Shown here one piece after another: positions 1 to 62,318 of a stretch of 64,000 nucleotides of DNA. A program made the translations under genes and the position numbers. The notes under the pieces are model-generated. The model was not told the DNA's origin and made no database searches. It saw only the letters and a list, made by a program, of their open reading frames with translations. This DNA comes from Oscillospiraceae bacterium (GTDB lineage Bacteria > Bacillota > Clostridia > Monoglobales > WRAG01): contig WRAG01000006.1 in the NCBI GenBank assembly GCA_009780345.1, forward strand, positions 1-64,000, written 5' to 3'. How positions within the stretch are numbered: the first letter of the stretch is position 1; every line of letters starts with the position of its first letter.

Positions 1-490
1 ACAGTAGGTTTCAACCAATCAAACTTCGTCAAAAGGCGACTTGTTTTCTTGGGAAACCCTTAAGGACGAACCGTTCGCGAAATCAAGATTTCGACGGTTC
101 AGCCACAAACCCCGAAAAACTTTAAAAAGTTTTATCAAACTTGCGGCGCAAACGCGCTATGGCGCTATCGTAAACGCGCCGCTAGAATAGTGCAAACATC
201 TACGTATCAATTCAATGACTACGGCGGCAAAAGCCGCAATCTTTAGTGAAAATTCGTACCGCGCCTAAAAGCGCGAGATGTCATTTGGCTAGGGTGCGTT
301 GATTGCACTAAGTATCGCCCGCGGTTCCGCCAAACGGGGCACCCGCGCGTTTTTTGCGTGGGTCGTGGCGGGGAGGGCGACGGTTTTGGTCAAACTTTTG
401 GCGCGCAAAAGTTTGCTGGATTGTCAAGGACTGGTCCTTGACGCGCCGCGCGCGCCCGCGCAACGCCTGCCGCCGTAGCGGCAAAAATGC
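1..490. repeat. interspersed palindrome-mosaic repeat, copy 1
   Basis: There is no credible gene here; the 67-aa ORF on the minus strand is an artefact of GC-rich hairpins. The stretch is a chain of palindromic modules. One has arms GAACCGT/ACGGTTC around CGAAATC/GATTTCG (about 70-105). Another is the GCGGCGC...GCGCCGC hairpin containing ACGCGCTATGGCGCTAT (about 144-191). Others are GGCAAAAGCC (about 222) and a TCAAGGAC/GTCCTTGA dyad (about 424-441). The same modules recur, in either orientation, at 27.7-28.2, 36.9-37.4 and 39.5-40.4 kb and inside the 5' end of the recombinase gene near 53.8 kb. Confidence 0.8.
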
Positions 491-7838: not shown

Positions 7839-7955
7839 TAGGTTACGTTAGGGGATTTTTCGAAAGTTGTCAAAATCTTTGATTTTGTTAACAACTTTCA
7901 TGAAGATTTTGTGGGTTTCAAAATCTTTATTCCCGTTTTTTTTTATTCGCAATTT

Positions 7956-39539: not shown

Positions 39540-40440
39540 CCTAAGGCACAAAAACTTTTGAAAAAAGTTTTGCAAAATTTGCGCCTGCGGCGCGGGATTT
39601 GTAGGACTTTGCCCTAAAACCCATTATTCAGAGCGAGGCTCTGCGGGCATCGTGTCACTGATTCGGCAAAAAGCGCCGAGGAAACGGCATAATGTAATGC
39701 CACGCGCTAAAGCGCGGGCTGCCGTTACCGGACGGGCGATAAGGGCTCTGCCCTTATCAATCCCGGTCGCCTATGGACGCAAACGCCAAAAAACGGCGAC
39801 AACAGTTGAAACTCCTCGCATAAAGCGCTTCGGAGGGCTAAATCTCTAAGCAGTAAACTGCTAAGAGCTTTATGCCAAGCCGGCGACGATAAAACTGGGT
39901 TAGCGAACCGCATTCGCGGTAAATGAGACTTAGCTTGCGTATTATGCAAGCTGTAGTCGAATTATCCAGTGAGCGTAAGCGAGTCGGGAAAGATTAGCGA
40001 GATATAACACCGTTTCAGTCGAGATTGCGGCTTTTGCCGCCGCACATGCTAAACTGAGAAGATATTGTTTGCAGTCCTCATATAGCGGCGCGCTTTTAAT
40101 AGCGCCATAGCGCGTTTGCGCCGCAAGGTTGGCATAAAGGCTCTTAGCAGTTTACTGCTTAGAGTTTTAGCCCTCCGAAGCGTTGTTTGCGAGGAGTTTC
40201 ATTATTTTTTTTGAAAAAATTTTTGGGGCTTGAGGCAGAACCGTCGAAATCTTGATTTCGCGAACGGTTCGTCCTTAAGGGTTTCCCAAGAAAACGAGTC
40301 GTTTGTTGACGAAGTTTGATTGGTCGAAACCTACTGCAAGGGTGTCAACACACCCTTGTCGTCCTGCGCTGACAAGCGCAAAACACTCGCCGCCGCAGCG
40401 GCAAAAAGGGTTTTTAGGGCAAATGTCCTTGACAAAGTAA
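39540..40440. repeat. interspersed palindrome-mosaic repeat, copy 4, with nested inverted-repeat element
   Basis: No gene is visible in about 900 bases; the 74-aa minus-strand ORF looks spurious. The block includes the hairpins AAAACTTTTGAAAAAAGTTTT, AGAGCGAGGCTCT, GATAAGGGCTCTGCCCTTATC and CGCGCTAAAGCGCG. It also has the GCGGCGCGC...GCGCCGC module inverted, and at about 40221-40330 the reverse complement of the first 110 bases of the window (GGTTTCGACCAATCAAACTT...). A 393-bp sub-element with about 71-bp terminal inverted repeats is nested inside. Confidence 0.8.
39808..40200. mobile_element. MITE-like element with ~71-bp terminal inverted repeats
   Basis: The left arm (39808-39878) begins GAAACTCCTCGCATAAAGCG and ends TTTATGCCAA. 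The right arm (40129-40200) is its near-perfect reverse complement, ending GCGAGGAGTTTC. Each arm holds its own hairpin CTCTAAGCAG-TAAA-CTGCTAAGAG. There is no transposase inside. Target-site duplication was not obvious by eye. Confidence 0.55.
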
Positions 40441-51510: not shown

Positions 51511-52071
51511 TCACATATCATTAAAATACCTCACTATCCCCGAAAATATCCCCCACGCAAGTTTGCGTTGATACTCCTCGGTTCGAAGCATTGCCGCCTC
51601 GGCGGGATTGCTTAAAAACCCACACTCCACCAACACCGCCGGAACCATTGAGTTTTTCAACACGAAAATTTGCGTATTCACCGGTTTAATCTCCCGCGGA
51701 TTATCTTCTCCAACCGCTTGCGCAATCCCTGCCCTTATGCTCGTCGCAAGCGTTTGACTTCCCTCGTTTGAAGTGCTGTAAAACACCTGCGCGCCGCTAT
51801 ATCGGCTATCAGCGAACGTGTTCATATGTATGCTGATAAACATATCGGCATTTGATTCGTCTCTATCGCGAACACGCTCAAGCAAGTCGCTGCGCCGCTG
51901 CGTCATTCCGGCGGGACGATCAGGGTCAAACGTTCCGCGGTCGTCATATCGGGTAAGAATCGCAACCCCGCCGCTTTGCTCGATAAACTCTTGAAGTTTC
52001 AGCGCAATCGCAAGGTTTATCTCCTTTTCGATTGTTCCATGCCCCGACGCCCCGTCGTCAATCCCTCCATG
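51511..52071 (-). pseudogene. cwlD: cwlD-like amidase, 3' part (interrupted gene)
   Basis: The 3' section of a sporulation-type N-acetylmuramoyl-L-alanine amidase. Reading starts at the CAT codon of the shared CATGG: HGGIDDGASGHGTIEKEINL, then VAILTRYDD, ADMFISIHMNTFADS with the second zinc His, and VLVECGFLSNPAEAAML with the catalytic Glu. The ORF track shows only the last 131 residues. The frame remains open to 52170, but upstream of 52072 it reads unrelated sequence (TYAYAP). The first zinc motif is cut; its other half lies at 63843-64000. I call it interrupted rather than dead, because excision would restore it. Confidence 0.93.
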
Positions 52072-52095
52072 AGGAGCGTACGCATAAGTACAACC
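52067..52095. other. attachment junction of the cwlD element, 3' side
   Basis: The core CCATG (52067-52071, read CATGG on the minus strand) is shared with the other junction. Inside the element the arm TAAGTACAAC (52085-52094; GTTGTACTTA on the minus strand) lies 13 bases from the core. The same arm occurs at 63823-63832 in inverted orientation relative to the circle junction. Confidence 0.85.
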
Positions 52096-52215
52096 GTCGC
52101 AACTCGCCCTCGAACTCGTTTTCGTACAAAAATCGTCCGAAAAGCTTCGTCTTATGGGCGTTTTGCTCCTTTATCCCAAAAAATTTCGGCTAAAGCCTGC
52201 ATTTTTCGGGAGCCC
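52096..52215. repeat. about 120-bp dispersed repeat, copy 2, inside the cwlD element
   Basis: This is the second copy of the repeat at 5169-5290 in the opposite orientation (GTCGCAACTCGCCC ... CGGGAGCCC). It fills the space between the recombinase stop and the attachment site. Identity is imperfect by eye; blocks such as GGGCTCCCGAAAAATG, CGCCCATAA and GGGCGAGTTGCGACG are shared. Confidence 0.7.
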
Positions 52216-52217
52216 TA

Positions 52218-53900
52218 CTAAAAATTCCACACAATTTTGATTTCCCTCGGCACATTTTTATCGCCAACCTTGCCGACATAAATCGTTTTGATAAATCCAC
52301 CCACGATTTCGTGAGTAAGTTTATCAATCCGCGAATACTTGACGATTATCTTCTCTTTAATATTGTCGTCAGCTAATCCCTGCTTGATAGCTTCAATTTC
52401 CATATCAATCCTTGAAACACGCTCGTTGAAGGTATCAATGCTATCCTGCGCGGTTTTGCTAAACTGAATAAATTGCTCCGATGTGATAATTCCGTCAACT
52501 CGGTCGGAATAAAGCAACTCTATAACCTTATTCTTCTTTTCGAGTTGCGCCGCAATGTCCGACTTCTCCTTCGCAAGCTTATCCAACTTGCGTTGCTTAC
52601 CGGCGTCGTCAACCTTGATTTTCGCGGAATCGTGATATTCAGTCAGCAATTTATTGACCTCAATCAAGACAATATCCTCTAACGCGTCAAATCGAATAGA
52701 CTTTCCGTTATCGCAAACATCAGTTGAATTGTTATAGGTTCGGCACTTCAGATACCGAAATCCGCCCTTGTTCTCCGGTGTGTTCACCTTTGTCAGCGTA
52801 TTTTCGCAAACACCGCAGAACACTTTTCCGTTAAAGATATGCTTCTCGCCTGTTCGCTTATCGGGACGAGTTCTCGTGGAAAGTTTCGCTTGAACTCGCT
52901 CCCAAATATCCATACCAATAATCGGCTCGTGCGCATTGAAAGTCCGTGTCCACTTATCACGAGAATGAATCCGCCGCTTTTTATTCTTATAACTGATATT
53001 CTCGGTTTTGTTTTGGCAAAGCGTTCCGATATATTCCTCTTTGCGAAGTATGTAGTAAATCGTGTCATTCGTCCACATATTGCCCGTAACGCGCTGGCGA
53101 TTACTGTCGCGATTGCTGTATTTTGAACCTTTCGATTTTTTGTAATTAGCCGGATTGAGGATTCCGCGATTATTCAAATTTTGAGCAATCGTTAAATATC
53201 CCATACCGTTCAAGAACATATCGAAAATCTCGCGAACAACTTCCGCCGCTTCCTCGTCAATCACAAGATGATTTTTATCAAGCGGGTCGCGCATAAACCC
53301 GTACGGCGCGAACGAACCCGTCCACTCGCCGTTCTGCTTTTTGTGATTGAGCGTTCGGCGAATATTATCCGATAAATCTTCGAGATACCATTCGTTAATC
53401 AGTCCGTTGATTTGCCGCGATTTTTTGTTTCCCTTAATATCGGTATCGGCGTTGTCAACAATCGAAACAAATCGGATATTCCATTCCAAAAATTTATCGT
53501 GGATATATTTTTCAACCATTTCCAACTCACGACTAAAACGCGATTGAGTTTTGCATAAGACAATATTAAATTTTTGTTCTTCCGCATCTGCGATTAGCTT
53601 GTTCCACTCGGGGCGACTTTTGTCCGCGCCCGAATAATCTTCATCGCAGTAAATTTTATAAACATCCCAGCCCTTTTCCATTGCATACGCGACAAGCATG
53701 GATTTTTGATTCTGTATGCTTTCACTTTCATCCGTCGCGTTACGCTTGTCCCTGTCCTCGTCCGACAGGCGGACGTAAATTGCCACTTTGCTGAGTTGTC
53801 CAAATCTCTGATTTGGCGAACAACTCGTACTTGAAGATTTCCCAAGAACGCAAGACGGGCTTTTGTCGCCGCGTGATTGGTTGAAATCCACCGTGTTCAT
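52218..53900 (-). CDS. large serine recombinase of the cwlD-interrupting element
   Basis: This 560-residue site-specific recombinase has a resolvase-like catalytic domain starting near residue 39 (VAIYVRLSDEDRDKRN, with the nucleophilic Ser in RLS; VLCKTQSRFSREL), a recombinase domain (APYGFMRDPLDKNHLVIDEE...), a zinc ribbon (FCGVCENTLTKVN...YLKCRTYNN) and a coiled coil (about 430-500). This is the SpoIVCA/TnpX/phiC31 architecture used to excise elements. Residues 5-37 are encoded by a copy of the interspersed repeat (DFNQSRGDKSPSCVLGKSSS...). The ATG at 53900 follows GGAGGG and overlaps a tiny upstream ORF. It is the gene next to the junction at 52067. Confidence 0.95.
   Translation of the reverse strand: MNTVDFNQSRGDKSPSCVLGKSSSTSCSPNQRFGQLSKVAIYVRLSDEDRDKRNATDESESIQNQKSMLVAYAMEKGWDVYKIYCDEDYSGADKSRPEWNKLIADAEEQKFNIVLCKTQSRFSRELEMVEKYIHDKFLEWNIRFVSIVDNADTDIKGNKKSRQINGLINEWYLEDLSDNIRRTLNHKKQNGEWTGSFAPYGFMRDPLDKNHLVIDEEAAEVVREIFDMFLNGMGYLTIAQNLNNRGILNPANYKKSKGSKYSNRDSNRQRVTGNMWTNDTIYYILRKEEYIGTLCQNKTENISYKNKKRRIHSRDKWTRTFNAHEPIIGMDIWERVQAKLSTRTRPDKRTGEKHIFNGKVFCGVCENTLTKVNTPENKGGFRYLKCRTYNNSTDVCDNGKSIRFDALEDIVLIEVNKLLTEYHDSAKIKVDDAGKQRKLDKLAKEKSDIAAQLEKKNKVIELLYSDRVDGIITSEQFIQFSKTAQDSIDTFNERVSRIDMEIEAIKQGLADDNIKEKIIVKYSRIDKLTHEIVGGFIKTIYVGKVGDKNVPREIKIVWNF
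53791..53888. repeat. interspersed repeat module within the recombinase coding region
   Basis: On the minus strand this reads GATTTCAACCAATCACG ... TTCTTGGGAAA ... GTTCGCCAAATCAGAGATTTGG. It corresponds to the module at about 8-110 of the window (GGTTTCAACCAATCAAAC ... GTTCGCGAAATCAAGATTTC) and to about 40221-40330 (reverse complement). The hairpin arms differ by compensatory changes (CCAAATC/GATTTGG versus CGAAATC/GATTTCG). Confidence 0.8.
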
Positions 53901-53950
53901 TGCAACCCTCCAAACAAAGCGACTATTGAATCTTGGGTGTATATTAACAT
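53897..53950 (-). CDS. 17-residue coupled leader ORF before the recombinase
   Basis: The ATG follows GAGGTGGAGCT, and the peptide is MLIYTQDSIVALFGGLQ. Its stop TGA overlaps the recombinase ATG (CAATGA), so recombinase translation may depend on ribosomes that finish this ORF. It may be a regulatory leader peptide rather than a functional protein. Confidence 0.55.
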   Translation of the reverse strand: MLIYTQDSIVALFGGLQ

Positions 53951-54090
53951 AGCTCCACCTCGTTTGCCAAGTCTTTTTTTATTAAATTTGAAATTTTCCG
54001 ATTTATTATCTCGGCAAGTTCCGTCTTATCTTGGGTGGAAATTATGTTGATGATTTTGTATTCAACCTTTTTCGATGTGTTATTTTTCAT
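53944..54090 (-). CDS. 48-residue ORF in the recombinase leader
   Basis: Reading from ATG 54090 (the stop of the upstream 27-residue ORF overlaps it as ATGA), the product is MKNNTSKKVEYKIINIISTQ followed by a helical segment (DKTELAEIINRKISNLIKKD). It is basic and helical. The end contains the ribosome-binding site of the 17-residue ORF. No family was recognised; similar short ORFs precede recombinases in clostridial elements. Confidence 0.55.
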   Translation of the reverse strand: MKNNTSKKVEYKIINIISTQDKTELAEIINRKISNLIKKDLANEVELC

Positions 54091-55417: not shown

Positions 55418-58400
55418 TTAATTATCTGCCCACATTTCACACTGGGTCATAACTGTTGAGATTACATCTTCCACGCCTTCCGGCGGATATTTATATTTTT
55501 TAAGAAGTCGTTTAACCATACGTCGCATATCAGCGCGAGCAGATTCTTTTTTCTGCCAATCAATAGTACGACTTTTACGAAGCAAATCTGTAAGCTCTTG
55601 TGTCATTTCAATAAGAACATCATTTTGATAAAAATCTTTTATTGCCGTTGATTTTGTAAGCGCGTCATAAAAAGCCAATTCCTCATAGGACAACCCAAGT
55701 TCATCGCCTTCTTCTTGCGCTGTTGTCATATCTTTTGCCATTTTCATCAACTCAGCGATTACTTCCTCGTTAGAAATCATACCATTTATATACTCTTTAA
55801 TCAAGCGGGACATCATTTCAGAAAACTTTTCCGATTTTACGAAATTGGTTTTTCGATAAAGTGAAATTTGTTCCGCTAATAGTTTTTTAAGTATCTCAAC
55901 CGCCAAGTTGCGTTCTTCCATATTCGCAATTTCAGCAAGAAACTTCGAGTCAAATAACGAAAATTCTTTGTCAATATCCGAAAACAAATTGATTACGCCT
56001 TTACTTTGAATGCTCGCTTTTAAAAGTTCGTTCACACGTTCGTTGATTTCTTTGAGCGACAAAGGTTTGTCTTCGCTGGAAATGCGAGTTAAAAGTGTGC
56101 GTACAGTTTCAAAATATGCCGCTTCAAGTCTTTGTTGCGAATTCAACAATGAACGACAAAGCGACAATGCTTGACGTAACAACATTGATTCTTTGATATA
56201 TTCTTCTTTTTGTTTTTCTTTGTCGATTGCAGATAAGAAATTTACACCGCCGCTAATAGTCTTTGCTCTTTGCAAGTCAGTAGATTTATCGTCCATAAAT
56301 TCTGAATGATCAAATCCGTGCAACAAGTCTCGACAAACTTCCAATTTTTCAATAAATTTCGGCAAGGCGGTTTTGGCAATATCTTGTTCGCTATAATTTT
56401 GCTTGTCGCGTTTAGTGTAGTCGTTCATCGCTTGCTTTAATGCGCCTGCGATACCGACATAATCCACAACCAAACCACCCTCTTTTTCCTTATAAACACG
56501 GTTGACGCGCGCGATTGCCTGCATAAGATTGTGTCCGGACATTGGTTTATAGACATACATTGTTGCAAGGGATGGCACATCAAATCCTGTCAGCCACATA
56601 TCCACAACAATAGCAATTTTCAACGGGTCATCGTCGTCTTTAAATTTCTTTGCCATTTCGTCTTTGTGTCTTTTGTTTCCGATAATCCCTCGCCATTCTT
56701 CGGGGTCTTTATTATCAGAAGTCATTACAACGCCGAGTTTTTCGTTCCAATTCGGCCTCATTTGTAATAACTTTTTATAAATATCCATTGCAATCGGGCG
56801 TGAATATGCTACAATCATTGCTTTACCGGTTAATTCATACTGTCGATTTTCTTCATAGTGCTTAATGATATCTTCGCATAGTGTAGTTATGGTTTGTTCG
56901 TTGCCGAGAATAGAATCCATTTTCCCAAGTTCTTTTTTACTTTTTTCAATCGCGTGTGGTTCAGCGTTTGCTGCCATAATTTCATATTCGACATCAATAA
57001 GTCGTAAAATATCTTCGTCAAGTTTCAGGTGAATAACACGGCTTTCGTAATAAACGGGACGTGTCGCGCCATCTTCAACCGCCTGCGTCATATCATATAC
57101 ATCAATATAATCGCCGAAAACTTCAATAGTTGAACGGTCTTTTGAGGAAATTGGGGTTCCTGTAAATCCTATGTAAGTTGCGTTCGGTAAACTTTCGCGA
57201 ATAATTAGTCCGAATGATTTTTTGATTTGCCCTTCCACGCTCACTTTTTCGTCAACAAATTGACTGCGATGCGCTTCGTCCGCGATAACAACTATATTTC
57301 GGCGATCTGAAAGAACGTCAAACGATTCCTCGAACTTTTGCGCCGTAGTAAATATGATACCATTAGCTTCTCGCCCTGCTAACAATTCTTTCAAATTTGC
57401 ACGGCTTGTAGCGCGTTCCGGAGTTTGTCGAAGAAAATCGGCGCACTTTGAAAACTGTCCATAAAGTTGGTCGTCAAGGTCATTTCGATCGGTTAATACG
57501 ACAATCGTTGGTGAATTAAGTGCATCTTGCAACAATTTTGCGTAAAACACCATTGACAACGACTTGCCACTACCTTGCGTATGCCAAAACACACCGCCTT
57601 TGCCATCTGTTTCAGTAGCTTTTGCAGAAGATGTCACAGCCTTACAAACCGCAAAATATTGGTGATAAGCGCCTAAAATTTTTGCATCGTCAGAAAAACA
57701 GATGAAATTCTTAATAATATCGAGTAAACGCGCTTTGTTAAATATTCCTTCAATTAAGGTATCATAATCCGCATACTGTGTGCTTTCGTAACTACCGTCT
57801 TTACTTTTCCATTCCATAAAACGGTCTTCGCTTGCCGTAATGGTTCCGGCTTTTGATATTGCAAGGTCACTTGTTATCAAAAAAGCGTTATAAGTAAACA
57901 AAATTGGGATTTCGTGCATATAATTGCGAAGTTGATTGTATGCTTCACTTACATCGGCTTCCTCGCGCGACGGTGATTTCACCTCAAACACCACCAACGG
58001 CAAACCGTTTATAAATATAATAATATCCGGGCGTTTTGTACTATTTTCTGAAATAGTCCATTGATTAGCGACAATAAAACTATTTTTACCGGGGTTTTCA
58101 AAATCTATCAGTCGTACCAAGGTCGCATGTTGTTCGCCGTTGTCGAAATAATTTACTTCAACACCGTTTTGAAGGTAATCCGTAAACTGTTTATTCTTTT
58201 GTATAAGAGCGCCGCTTCCGAAGTCGCGTAATTTGGCGACCGCCTCACTTAACGCACTTTCCGGCAGTTTCGGATTAACACGCCGCAGAGCTGACATAAG
58301 CTCGTCTAAATAAAGCGCATCAGAATAATCCCGCGCCACATCCGGTCCGTAAATATGCGTATAGCCCAACGTGTTACGAAGTATTTCAATTATAGCATTT

Positions 58401-58426
58401 TCGTAGTTAGCTTCGGTGAACGACAT
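55418..58426 (-). CDS. hsdR: type I restriction enzyme, R subunit
   Basis: This is the motor and nuclease subunit of a type I restriction-modification complex. The start at 58426 (MSFTEANYENAIIEILRNTL) follows AAGGTGGTCATCCT; the track's start overlaps the gene upstream. The PD-(D/E)XK nuclease has RPDIIIFINGLPLVVFEVKS, the helicase has Walker A HTQGSGKSLSM, DEAH in VVIADEAHRSQF, and the later motif ARVNRVYKEKEGGLVVDYVG. The C-terminal helical region is full length, ending near residue 1002. It is the last gene of the operon. Confidence 0.95.
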   Translation of the reverse strand: MSFTEANYENAIIEILRNTLGYTHIYGPDVARDYSDALYLDELMSALRRVNPKLPESALSEAVAKLRDFGSGALIQKNKQFTDYLQNGVEVNYFDNGEQHATLVRLIDFENPGKNSFIVANQWTISENSTKRPDIIIFINGLPLVVFEVKSPSREEADVSEAYNQLRNYMHEIPILFTYNAFLITSDLAISKAGTITASEDRFMEWKSKDGSYESTQYADYDTLIEGIFNKARLLDIIKNFICFSDDAKILGAYHQYFAVCKAVTSSAKATETDGKGGVFWHTQGSGKSLSMVFYAKLLQDALNSPTIVVLTDRNDLDDQLYGQFSKCADFLRQTPERATSRANLKELLAGREANGIIFTTAQKFEESFDVLSDRRNIVVIADEAHRSQFVDEKVSVEGQIKKSFGLIIRESLPNATYIGFTGTPISSKDRSTIEVFGDYIDVYDMTQAVEDGATRPVYYESRVIHLKLDEDILRLIDVEYEIMAANAEPHAIEKSKKELGKMDSILGNEQTITTLCEDIIKHYEENRQYELTGKAMIVAYSRPIAMDIYKKLLQMRPNWNEKLGVVMTSDNKDPEEWRGIIGNKRHKDEMAKKFKDDDDPLKIAIVVDMWLTGFDVPSLATMYVYKPMSGHNLMQAIARVNRVYKEKEGGLVVDYVGIAGALKQAMNDYTKRDKQNYSEQDIAKTALPKFIEKLEVCRDLLHGFDHSEFMDDKSTDLQRAKTISGGVNFLSAIDKEKQKEEYIKESMLLRQALSLCRSLLNSQQRLEAAYFETVRTLLTRISSEDKPLSLKEINERVNELLKASIQSKGVINLFSDIDKEFSLFDSKFLAEIANMEERNLAVEILKKLLAEQISLYRKTNFVKSEKFSEMMSRLIKEYINGMISNEEVIAELMKMAKDMTTAQEEGDELGLSYEELAFYDALTKSTAIKDFYQNDVLIEMTQELTDLLRKSRTIDWQKKESARADMRRMVKRLLKKYKYPPEGVEDVISTVMTQCEMWADN

Positions 58427-58451
58427 AGGATGACCACCTTCTTCTTTATTA

Positions 58452-58916
58452 TCATTGATTGCTATAGTAACATCTCTTAACTTCATCTCCAAACTTATCA
58501 AAAACCCACTCAATGCCTTTTTCTCCATATCTAATAACAATATATTTTGGAATATTATCGGTATGCCATCTTAGCCTGTCTTGATATTCATTATATTCAG
58601 CTAATGTAGGATTATAGTATGAAGCGAAGAAAGGGTTATAGGTTGACGTTTGTTGCATTTGTGGTCTTGGCTGATTGATAAAATTTTTAGCGGCAAGCAT
58701 TGCATTGTAAACCACAATTTCTTTTTCATAATGCTCTTCGGTTTTTCCCAGTCTATAAACGGGGGCAAAAATATTCGATGAATTTATTGCAATTAAATTG
58801 TCGTCCCGAAAATTTCAATCTTCTTTTAATTCAACTGCATTTTTGCCGATAGTTATAATAAAATCAACTACATCTTGTGGTGTAACATTGAAACTCCAAT
58901 AATTATTATTTATCAT
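58452..58916 (-). pseudogene. hypothetical protein with in-frame UGA, between hsdS and hsdR
   Basis: From ATG 58916 (after AAAGAGGTAAGAAT) the frame reads MINNNYWSFNVTPQDVVDFI...VELKED, then TGA at 58815-58817, then continues in the same frame with NFRDDNLIAINSSNIFAPVY to a stop at 58452. The total would be 154 residues if TGA were a sense codon, for example TGG. The ORF track shows only the last 87 residues. The continuity of frame over 120 codons after the TGA suggests a recent nonsense mutation or read-through. Function unknown. Confidence 0.65.
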
Positions 58917-58940
58917 ATTCTTACCTCTTTCTTTAAATCA

Positions 58941-60359
58941 TCATTTAGCGGTGAGGTCTGCGACGAATACCTCGCCGGACATTAGGCGAGGTAATAAAGT
59001 GTCGCGGAGTTCCGCAAGGCGAGCGTTTTCTGCGTTATTGTGTGCTATTTGTTCAACAAATCCATTAAACAACCCAAATGTTTCATCATCGCAAGGCATA
59101 AACAGTTCAAAATTTTCTATACTACCTTTTGTGATGAACCTAATAACCGAGCCTCTGAAACCCGATGTAATTTCAGAGAGGCAATGTTTGATAGCATAAT
59201 ATAAGAACCCTAAATGTTTTTGTTCGTTTGGTATTAAAACATAAGTGCGTTGGTAGGCTTCAAATTTACCGCTATAAACCTTGACATTGAAGTCGCCGTT
59301 TCCTGCAAGCAATATAGCGTTTGCGTCAAATGAGTAATTATCGGTATACAAAATATTTTGCGAGCAACTAAAAAAAGGATATATCCCGCCTTTGGCAACA
59401 TTGGCGTCTTTCTTGCCGGTAATGACAGGAAACCAATCACCAAGTTTGCAATTTGGCTCACGGTTTCCAAATCGTTCCGCCCATACCGCCCTTGCCATCT
59501 GTTCTAAATTATGATTTATCGCTGTGTTGTTGGCGATTTTATCGTCGAATGAAGAGAGTGTGTCGGCGACGGTGCGTTGCGTGTCGAGGTCGGGCAGCTC
59601 GATTTCATACGACAAAATTGTTTTTGGCGCAGTATGTTTTACCGTACTTCCTGATGCGTGATTTACGATATACTTTTGATAATCCCTTGTTCGCATAATC
59701 CAATACACATATTCACTTAAAACATTATCACTATTTATAGTTACTAAACCAATACGCTGATTGTGCAAATAACGATTATCCTCCGGAATAAAAGCAGAAT
59801 ATCCCAATGTATCCCCTTGTTTGCTTAAATCAGTCATTGTTACAATTAAGTCGCCTTCGTTTAGCATATAATCCTTAGGAATAGGTCCATTATAATTTTT
59901 GGGCTTGCCGAATTGAAAACCTCCGCCTATTGCAAAATTTCCGGGAGTAACTAATAAATATTCTGTTGGGGTATCACAAAAATATTCACCTTTGAAAGCG
60001 AAACCGTGCTTTATATCGCACACATCACCAAGTTTACACCTCAAACCCAATCGCTCGCGTTTTCCCTTATATATCCTCTCATTTCCTGCGTCAATAATTT
60101 TTTTAAAACTTTCGCTAATCGCATTATAATCAATTACATCTACCTTAAACGGCAAATCACTTTCCATAAAATCTTCTTTGATTTTGCTTATAACACTATA
60201 TCCGATTTTATCCTCGCCAATTAAAGCCAAATCAAGGTCGCTTGTTTCGGTATTCGTCCATTTGTAGCGCGAACCGAACGCTAACACATCATAATTTGGC
60301 GTGTGCTTTTTTATTATATTAAGTATAATTTCCATTTCAAACGGACTAACCGCTATCAT
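58941..60359 (-). CDS. hsdS: type I restriction specificity subunit fused to an MNT nucleotidyltransferase domain
   Basis: Residues about 1-100 match the minimal nucleotidyltransferase family (MNT/HI0073): LAFGSRYKWTNTETSDLDLALIG with the GS and D-x-D motifs, and LPFKVDVIDYNAIS for the third Asp. Residues about 105-470 are a normal HsdS with two target-recognition domains (KLGDVCDIKHGFAFKG, KLGDWFPVITGKKDANV) separated by helical spacers ending ELRDTLLPRLMSGEV. MNT domains usually work with a HEPN partner, and the gene immediately upstream encodes one; they overlap by 4 bases. A single polypeptide carrying both functions is unusual. Confidence 0.88.
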   Translation of the reverse strand: MIAVSPFEMEIILNIIKKHTPNYDVLAFGSRYKWTNTETSDLDLALIGEDKIGYSVISKIKEDFMESDLPFKVDVIDYNAISESFKKIIDAGNERIYKGKRERLGLRCKLGDVCDIKHGFAFKGEYFCDTPTEYLLVTPGNFAIGGGFQFGKPKNYNGPIPKDYMLNEGDLIVTMTDLSKQGDTLGYSAFIPEDNRYLHNQRIGLVTINSDNVLSEYVYWIMRTRDYQKYIVNHASGSTVKHTAPKTILSYEIELPDLDTQRTVADTLSSFDDKIANNTAINHNLEQMARAVWAERFGNREPNCKLGDWFPVITGKKDANVAKGGIYPFFSCSQNILYTDNYSFDANAILLAGNGDFNVKVYSGKFEAYQRTYVLIPNEQKHLGFLYYAIKHCLSEITSGFRGSVIRFITKGSIENFELFMPCDDETFGLFNGFVEQIAHNNAENARLAELRDTLLPRLMSGEVFVADLTAK

Positions 60360-60808
60360 CGGCGTTCCTCCAACCTTTTTATAAAGTCCGTTAAGTGCTT
60401 TTCAAATTGTTTTGCAGCCACGTAAACTTCTTCAGCAATTTCTTCATGATAAGTGTGCGATGTTTTATTACGGGCGGCATAAAAATTCCACCAGCTTTCC
60501 GGGTCAGCTATTAGCCCGCTATTGTGAGCTATGCGGAAAAGCTCGCGTTTGGGTTTTTCCGCGATGCCGCTGTCAGCGTTTATTTTAATCCAACGTTGCA
60601 TTATTTTCCAGGCGCTTTCTATCGTTGTTTCAAATACTTGTATAACCGCAGAACGCGCAAATTGATACTCAAACGAATAGTCGTTTTCATCACCTAAAAA
60701 AACTTTTGGGTCTCTCGCTTCAAGTTTTAAAGCTCTCGCTATAGTTTTTTTGAAATTTTCCGCGCACTTAACCATATCTGAAATATTTAATTTTTCATCG
60801 AATTTCAT
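60356..60808 (-). CDS. HEPN-type nucleotidyltransferase-substrate-binding protein (HI0074 family)
   Basis: A helical 150-residue protein of the HI0074-like group that pairs with MNT nucleotidyltransferases. The motif RNKTSHTY (about 110-117) matches the R-x4-H signature of HEPN RNases. In HepT-MntA systems the HEPN toxin is neutralised by AMP addition from the MNT partner. The MNT here is the N-terminal domain of the next gene, HsdS. It overlaps hsdM by 14 bases and hsdS by 4, so the three are translated as one unit. Confidence 0.82.
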   Translation of the reverse strand: MKFDEKLNISDMVKCAENFKKTIARALKLEARDPKVFLGDENDYSFEYQFARSAVIQVFETTIESAWKIMQRWIKINADSGIAEKPKRELFRIAHNSGLIADPESWWNFYAARNKTSHTYHEEIAEEVYVAAKQFEKHLTDFIKRLEERR

Positions 60809-62318
60809 ACCCGATTCCTCCTAATCGTTTTTTGATTTCATTTTCCAACTCATGCGATTTAGCAAACATCCCCGAAAGCTCGCCCGTCAATCGTTTCATT
60901 TTATCGTCAAAAGGTTCGCCGTCGTCCTCTTGCTCCTCAATCCCAACATATCGTCCGGGCGTAAGTATGAAATCTTGTTTTGCAATTTCTTCGGTGGTAA
61001 CAGCGGCACAAAAACCTTTCACATCTTCAAGAGTTTCGTTGTTGAACGCTTCAAAAGTCGCAGCGATTTTGGCAATATCTTCGTCGGTCATTTCGCGGTT
61101 TTTGCGTGAAATCATAGTTCCCATTTTTCGTGCATCTATAAATAGCGTTTTGCCTTTTTGCGTTTTGTTGCGATTAATAAACCACAACGAAACCGGAATT
61201 TGCGTTGTATAAAATAATTGCGTAGGCATTGCGACGATACCTTCCACAAGGTCGTCTTCGATAATTCTTCTTCGAATTTCGCCCTCACCGCCACTTTGCG
61301 ATGACAGCGAACCGTTTGCCAAAACCATTCCAATTTTACCATTAGGAGATAAATGGTGAATCATATGTTGTAGCCACGCAAAGTTTGCGTTACCTGAGGG
61401 CGGCAATCCGTATTTCCAACGAACATCGTCAACTAATTTATCCGCGCCCCAATCTGAAAGGTTAAACGGAGGATTTGCTAATATGTAATCTGCTTTAAGG
61501 GTTGGATGACAGTCATTGAAAAAAGTGTCGGCATTATATTGTCCTAAATCCGCGTCCAAACCACGTATGGCAAGGTTCATTGCCGCCATTTTCCAAGTTG
61601 TTGGGTTGGAATCTTGTCCATATATAGCAATATTTCTAATATTTCCTTGATGATGTTTTATAAAATCCGCAGATTGAACAAACATTCCGCCGCTACCGCA
61701 ACAAGGGTCATAAACTCTGCCGTTAAACGGTTTAATAATTTCAACAAGCGTTTTAACCACGCATTCGGGCGTAAAAAACTCTCCTGCAAGTTTCCCTTCC
61801 TGCTCGGCAAATTTTCGAAGACAATATTGATAAGTTTTTCCGAGAATATCCTGTGCGCCATTATGATCGTTCATTTTAAAGTTGGTGAACAAATCCACGA
61901 CGTCACCAAGCCTACGTTTGTCAAGTTCCGGTCTTGCGAAATTTTTAGGCAAAATTCCTTTCAACTTCTTGTTTTCTTGCTCAATTGCACGCATAGCATT
62001 ATCAATAACTATGCCAATTTCGGGCGAACGCGCCTCATCGCGAATAATATCCCACCGAGCCGACGGCGGTACATAAAAAACATTTTCTGCAGTATATTCG
62101 TCAACGTCTTCTTCGAAACCATCGCCTTCTTCTCGAAGCTGATTATATCTCTCGTCGAATTTATCCGAAATATATTTAAGGAAAATCAAACCAAGAACGA
62201 CGTGTTTATATTCGGATGCGTCAATATTTCCGCGTAGTATATCTGCGGCTTTCCATATTTTCTGTTCAAATTCAGTTATTAAGATTGATGAGTCGTTACT
62301 TTTGTTTTGTATTGCCAT
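60795..62318 (-). CDS. hsdM: type I restriction enzyme, M subunit
   Basis: This is the adenine methyltransferase of the type I system. The N-terminal helical domain (LITEFEQKIWKAADILRG) precedes the SAM-dependent core: VYDPCCGSGGMFVQSADFI for SAM binding and ADYILANPPFNLSDWG as catalytic NPPF. The chain ends with a C-terminal helical tail (LTGELSGMFAKSHELENEIKK). It is first in the operon hsdM - HEPN - MNT/hsdS - (UGA gene) - hsdR, driven by a promoter at 62375-62403. Confidence 0.96.
   Translation of the reverse strand: MAIQNKSNDSSILITEFEQKIWKAADILRGNIDASEYKHVVLGLIFLKYISDKFDERYNQLREEGDGFEEDVDEYTAENVFYVPPSARWDIIRDEARSPEIGIVIDNAMRAIEQENKKLKGILPKNFARPELDKRRLGDVVDLFTNFKMNDHNGAQDILGKTYQYCLRKFAEQEGKLAGEFFTPECVVKTLVEIIKPFNGRVYDPCCGSGGMFVQSADFIKHHQGNIRNIAIYGQDSNPTTWKMAAMNLAIRGLDADLGQYNADTFFNDCHPTLKADYILANPPFNLSDWGADKLVDDVRWKYGLPPSGNANFAWLQHMIHHLSPNGKIGMVLANGSLSSQSGGEGEIRRRIIEDDLVEGIVAMPTQLFYTTQIPVSLWFINRNKTQKGKTLFIDARKMGTMISRKNREMTDEDIAKIAATFEAFNNETLEDVKGFCAAVTTEEIAKQDFILTPGRYVGIEEQEDDGEPFDDKMKRLTGELSGMFAKSHELENEIKKRLGGIGYEIR

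Follow-up and report, generated by a model that had tools for sequence, protein, structure and literature searches.

A two-hairpin DNA repeat inserted in frame at the start of a large serine recombinase gene in an Oscillospiraceae bacterium

Introduction

What happens to a gene when a copy of an interspersed DNA repeat comes to lie within its first codons? This question is raised by a recombinase gene of an Oscillospiraceae bacterium (assembly GCA_009780345.1), located in the first 64,000 nucleotides of contig WRAG01000006.1, here called the window. Residues 3-37 of the predicted protein correspond to repeat, and homologous sequence is found from codon 38 on. In-frame palindromic inserts are established for the Rickettsia RPEs and for REPs elsewhere, some of which lie in DNA repair genes or form N-termini (PMC2229807, PMC3767692, PMC3733652). 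Here we ask whether the repeat supplied the start of the recombinase, entered behind an existing one or forms an untranslated leader, and whether the family to which it belongs is adapted to coding sequence.

A repeat copy behind the apparent native start

By its Resolvase, Recombinase and zinc-ribbon domains and its catalytic serine, the gene is predicted to encode a large serine recombinase. Pfam places the Resolvase domain at residues 39-193, the Recombinase domain at 216-343, a zinc ribbon at 356-412 and DUF4368 at the C-terminus, and the catalytic Ser46 is invariant in 16 sequences together with the other core residues. The beginning of the gene contains one copy of a DNA repeat of ~104 nt with two hairpins (Table 1). 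Within the window, this copy shares 76% identity over 97 nt with the copy at the contig end (E 2e-13) and 73% over 89 nt with the intergenic copy (E 6e-8), and a covariance model based on 32 further copies, with this one left out, recovers it with 102 bits (E 3e-25). Its identity to any other copy used is at most 82%, and all 33 model pairs are standard pairs, with no G-T pair among them. Folded as single-stranded DNA, its hairpin 1 reaches -19.8 kcal/mol (z -3.2); the RNA of this copy also has a strong predicted fold.

Table 1. Features of the recombinase locus and repeat copies in the window
Feature	Position	Strand	Basis
Large serine recombinase, 560 aa	52218..53900	-	Pfam domains
ATG start codon, judged native	53898..53900	-	Joined flanks match length of homologues
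Shine-Dalgarno-like GGAGGG, 5 nt before ATG, outside repeat	53906..53911	-	Sequence
17-codon ORF MLIYTQDSIVALFGGLQ; its stop overlaps the recombinase start (ATGA)	53897..53950	-	ORF reading
48-aa ORF MKNNTSKKVEYK..., overlaps start of 17-codon ORF	53944..54090	-	ORF reading
Repeat copy in recombinase gene, model positions 1-104	53789..53894	-	Covariance model and flank joining
Hairpin 1 (GATTTC/GAAATC, CCAA/TTGG, ACGC/GCGT, GAC/GTC)	53836..53888	-	Covariance model, pairing
Hairpin 2 (GAGTTGT ... CCAAATC / GATTTGG ... ACAACTC, with outer pair)	53789..53829	-	Covariance model, fold
Family copy at end of assembly contig	1..104	+	Sequence match and covariance model
Family copy, intergenic	40234..40337	-	Sequence match and covariance model
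Degenerate, shortened fourth family copy	7863..7931	-	Covariance model, 30 bits, E 5.5e-6

The inserted part comprises 105 nt (CGGTGG...CTCAGCA) flanked by ATGAACA and AAGTGGCA, its border being ambiguous by an A or two. Joining the flanks around it yields MNKVAIYVRLSDED, which matches the homologue starts MTKVAVYCRLSDED and MAKVAIYCRLSEED and reads ATG AAC AAA GTG GCA, MNKVAIYVRLSDEDRDK, an N-terminus of the same length as in homologues. Homologues from the same order and class begin at our domain start, namely L068 (MTKVAVY; MTKVAVYCRLSDEDR), L071 (MAKVAIY; MAKVAIYCRLSEEDR) and L070 (MTATALY; MTATALYLRLSDEDR), and so does the paralogue L097 (MKNVAIY; MKNVAIYCRLSDEDD); the empty site is modelled on homologues at 44-49% identity rather than on an insert-free strain. 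The closest relatives with an aligned start begin at our codon 38. Among the matches listed from relatives, plasmids and phages, alignments mostly start at residues 28-40 or later (about 28-41 for relatives), the few starting at residues 6-26 are distant (27-33% identity), and no homologue was seen to share the tail. Six recombinase paralogues were retrieved from this genome, none of them with a repeat in frame upstream of the domain, and the viral contigs searched contained no relative of the recombinase.

Since neither the ATG nor the Shine-Dalgarno-like site is part of the repeat, and joining the flanks gives an N-terminus of native length, we conclude that the repeat entered cleanly, in frame, behind an existing start. 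The reading frame is free of stops throughout the insert, whose length is a multiple of three. A second in-frame start, a GTG at codon 39, lies near the native position and has no Shine-Dalgarno site at the usual distance. The 48-aa and 17-codon ORFs upstream are probably part of the same transcript, and the tail itself is probably translated. AlphaFold2 assigns residues 1-34 a pLDDT of about 31 and places the first strand at residue 38; the ~35 extra residues are probably disordered.

The initial annotation had described the N-terminal extension as a repeat copy, and the model built from other copies bears this out. It had also let the catalytic domain begin only at VAIYVRLS; the domain starts at KVAIYVRLS, in agreement with the Resolvase match from residue 39 and with the homologues aligned to locate the native start, and its proposals of an ATG coupled to an upstream ORF and of a probably translated repeat are in line with the ATGA overlap and with our own reading, respectively. 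The three copies that it had grouped together do belong to one family, with bounds corrected to those in Table 1. Homologues with the same residues but no nucleotide repeat, which it had named as counter-evidence, were not seen among the matches listed. For the extra residues, which it had thought might alter activity, the prediction is one of disorder. Its suggestion that the repeat had supplied a new start is contradicted by the position of the ATG and Shine-Dalgarno site and by the native-length N-terminus of the joined flanks.

A high-copy family with strict base pairing

In this 2.05-Mb genome the family has 44 matches by blastn and 136 by the covariance model, a number far beyond chance, and comes mainly in a CGGTAG form of 104-106 nt and a CGGTCA form of 104-111 nt. 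The contig starts inside a repeat copy, and several contigs of the assembly break at family copies, so that copy number and flanks are uncertain there. Three further contig ends carry copies identical to the contig-end copy in Table 1, whose flank is available on one side only.

In one alignment of copies (A1), 98.7% of cells are paired and 21 pairs show changes on both sides. A larger one (A3; 90 distinct rows, 33 pairs) has 97.5% paired cells and double changes in 31 of the 33 pairs; double-changed cells number 722, compared with 236 in shuffles. This alignment was fitted to the structure, and copies within a genome are related, so the pair counts are not independent events. When the alignment was slid as a control, paired cells dropped to 29-47%. 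Only 25 of 2798 pairs (0.9%) are G-T. Because RNA helices usually tolerate more G-U, this scarcity suggests that selection acts on DNA hairpins and not on RNA. The element matches no Rfam family, and a literature search by sequence string returned no match to it.

Beyond this genome, no DNA match to the repeat was obtained in 39 relatives of the same order. The covariance model detected copies in genomes G025 and G008 and in 19 other genomes of the 391 in the class, and copies are present in named Selenomonadaceae and Lachnospiraceae contigs. The first DNA pattern searched in genome contigs gave no match; a looser one hit Selenomonas, Lachnospiraceae, Ruminococcaceae and Oscillospiraceae. The viral contigs searched held no match to the element.

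Insertion into hairpins and into other copies

Copies are found cleanly inside other copies, in the loop of hairpin 2 at A^A (L060, with a second host in L062), and, in three hosts, within hairpin 1 after TTCTTGGG. Furthermore, for the 57 copies whose flanks are distinct, inverted repeats between the two flanks exceed those between re-paired flanks (mean 3.96 versus 2.81, sd 0.14), and none of 200 shuffles was as high as the observed mean. Copies lie within other copies and within host hairpins more often than expected by chance. The recombinase site itself makes a weak case in the test for hairpin tips, scoring only 3; by eye, a looser stem (CTTTGTT/AACAAAG) can be made out across it once the flanks are joined. 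No target duplication is evident at family copies, and no terminal inverted repeats join both ends of the element. A different two-hairpin insert (TTTGAGACTT...CAGCCATCTG) occupies the same place between both hairpins in five hosts (L054 1615-1704, L011, L055, L062 and L169).

An IS200/RAYT transposase was considered as the mover and rejected, because this genome has one Y1_Tnp, which contains an internal stop, and, of the Y1_Tnp loci retrieved, a single one has model matches nearby. Y1_Tnp is also absent from 5 of the 13 other element-bearing genomes. In genome G025, a Y1_Tnp match that also contains an internal stop is followed 187 nt downstream by a family member (L130 1501-1599), an arrangement that looks incidental.

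Rare coding use of the repeat

Among the ~110 copies in this genome screened for overlapping ORFs, the recombinase is the only recognisable gene with a repeat in frame. Other ORFs overlapping copies have either no Pfam domain or a domain together with a plausible start outside the repeat; as fusions they were discarded, since they looked spurious or had their real start outside. The insert length is divisible by three in 3 of 75 distinct copies and would shift the frame in the remaining 72; that the recombinase copy is among the three is as expected if gene insertions survive only in frame. One sense frame is free of stops in 92% of copies, compared with 48% per frame in shuffles, a figure to be read in the light of the copies being related. 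Despite this open frame, we reject coding adaptation of the family, given that relatedness and the 72 frame-shifting lengths. The initial annotation had offered a spread as coding-compatible hairpin as one possibility, which the single recognisable gene and the frame-shifting copies speak against, and the search it recommended for further repeat-derived N-termini produced none besides the recombinase among the ~110 copies screened.

In another genome, a family member (L185 1501-1605) lies antisense in a probable phage structural gene. The alignment of a phage homologue reaches query residue 525 and so runs into the repeat stretch (499-534), which leaves a clean insertion unproven at this locus.

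Discussion

We consider it very probable that a mobile two-hairpin repeat, spreading as single-stranded DNA, inserted in frame after codon 2 of the recombinase, that the native start was kept and that the resulting tail is likely neutral. According to this account, a mobile non-coding DNA repeat of ~104 nt would have landed between codon 2 and the rest of the gene, adding 105 nt; as this length is divisible by three and the frame through it has no stop, the gene would have survived. Translation would most likely proceed from the original ATG with the original Shine-Dalgarno site, giving a protein whose ~35 additional residues are probably disordered and most likely neutral. The family would spread as folded single-stranded DNA and prefer hairpin-forming sites, its own copies included. 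Insertion, retained start, paired structure, copy number and nesting are the firm elements of this account; translation of the tail, its neutrality and the single-stranded DNA route are inferred.

The repeat might instead be a 5' untranslated leader, with translation from GTG39 and hairpins that only tune expression, a role argued for in the case of many REPs where ORFs begin in other species. GTG39 is in frame and almost at the native position, the RNA folds strongly, and many REPs at N-termini may be non-coding, as put forward by Di Nocera et al. 2013 (PMC3733652). However, the upstream ATG has GGAGGG at a distance of 5 nt and overlaps the ORF before it, whereas GTG39 lacks a purine-rich site at the proper spacing and comes after a strong hairpin; the repeat has also kept an open frame whose length fits, something that an untranslated leader could do without. 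We therefore regard a leader as improbable. Still less likely is that the hairpins regulate the recombinase or are its site of action, the insertion being adaptive. All 33 pairs are kept in the recombinase copy despite its divergence from every other copy used, but structure is kept in all family members wherever they are located, so that conservation before insertion explains the intact pairs; moreover, homologues in relatives lack the repeat, as the retrieved paralogues lack one in frame upstream of the domain. That the 37 residues have long formed the N-terminus of this recombinase subfamily and resemble the repeat by accident is scarcely credible given the 102 bits from a model built without this copy and the closest homologues lacking these residues; as far as the sampled homologues go, such a reading is already refuted.

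The fusion adds a further case to a phenomenon already known, and the family behind it is apparently new. Like the family here, the Rickettsia RPEs and the Wolbachia palindromic elements are described in PMC2229807, PMC3767692 and PMC3733652 as interspersed palindromic repeats of 100-150 bp, some of them in frame, including at N-termini. With 104-111 nt, two hairpins and 136 matches, the family is of this kind in size and palindromic nature; an in-frame insertion with the host gene remaining open is seen at the recombinase copy only. RPE-1 to RPE-3 are frequent in ORFs, compared with one clear gene insertion among the ~110 copies screened here. The lineage also differs, and the likeness is one of description. 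The repeat family in gut-type Bacillota appears undescribed.

GTAG/CGTC-tagged REPs with RAYT are likewise palindromic, of high copy number and occasionally intragenic, and Firmicutes are not among the phyla named for GTAG and CGTC repeats in the excerpt concerned (PMC3733652). In contrast to GTAG-tagged REPs, which have a conserved unpaired GTAG end, a single 20-40-bp hairpin and a linked RAYT (Y1 transposase), the family ends in GTAG in 42 of 77 copies, GTCA in 34 and GTGG in one, with the last base of the motif paired, and has two covarying hairpins over 104-111 nt; no RAYT could be tied to it, and G-T pairs are rare. Mitochondrial double-hairpin, or repetitive hairpin-forming, elements resemble it in having two hairpins, looking mobile and occurring in intergenic and coding DNA (PMC2800124). 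They are, however, organellar, and the likeness is one of form. They are also much shorter than the ~104-nt family. MITEs are short, non-autonomous and interspersed as well, but the family has no terminal inverted repeats joining the element ends and no clear target duplication was seen.

Rickettsia and Wolbachia are the best-known sources of in-frame palindromic repeats. That an apparently unrelated family has led to the same result in a Bacillota genome suggests that hairpin repeats, wherever abundant, become protein tails. We give even chances to the broader proposition that this is an undescribed family of two-hairpin mobile elements across Bacillota, recognised as folded single-stranded DNA, which inserts without target duplication into hairpins and its own copies, builds nested arrays and occasionally adds in-frame protein tails. 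With its strict Watson-Crick covariation and nested copies, the family offers a natural system to study site choice by non-autonomous DNA hairpins and movers without RAYT.

The surroundings of the recombinase have features of their own. Near its 3' end, an N-acetylmuramoyl-L-alanine amidase (Amidase_3; window 51511-52130, minus strand) lacks a proper start, its frame becoming unrecognisable there, and may be the integration site of an island carrying the recombinase. Type I restriction-modification genes (HsdR, HsdS and HsdM; window 55418-62318, minus strand) follow the recombinase; HsdS has an N-terminal nucleotidyltransferase-like domain, and an extra 150-aa ORF lies between S and M.
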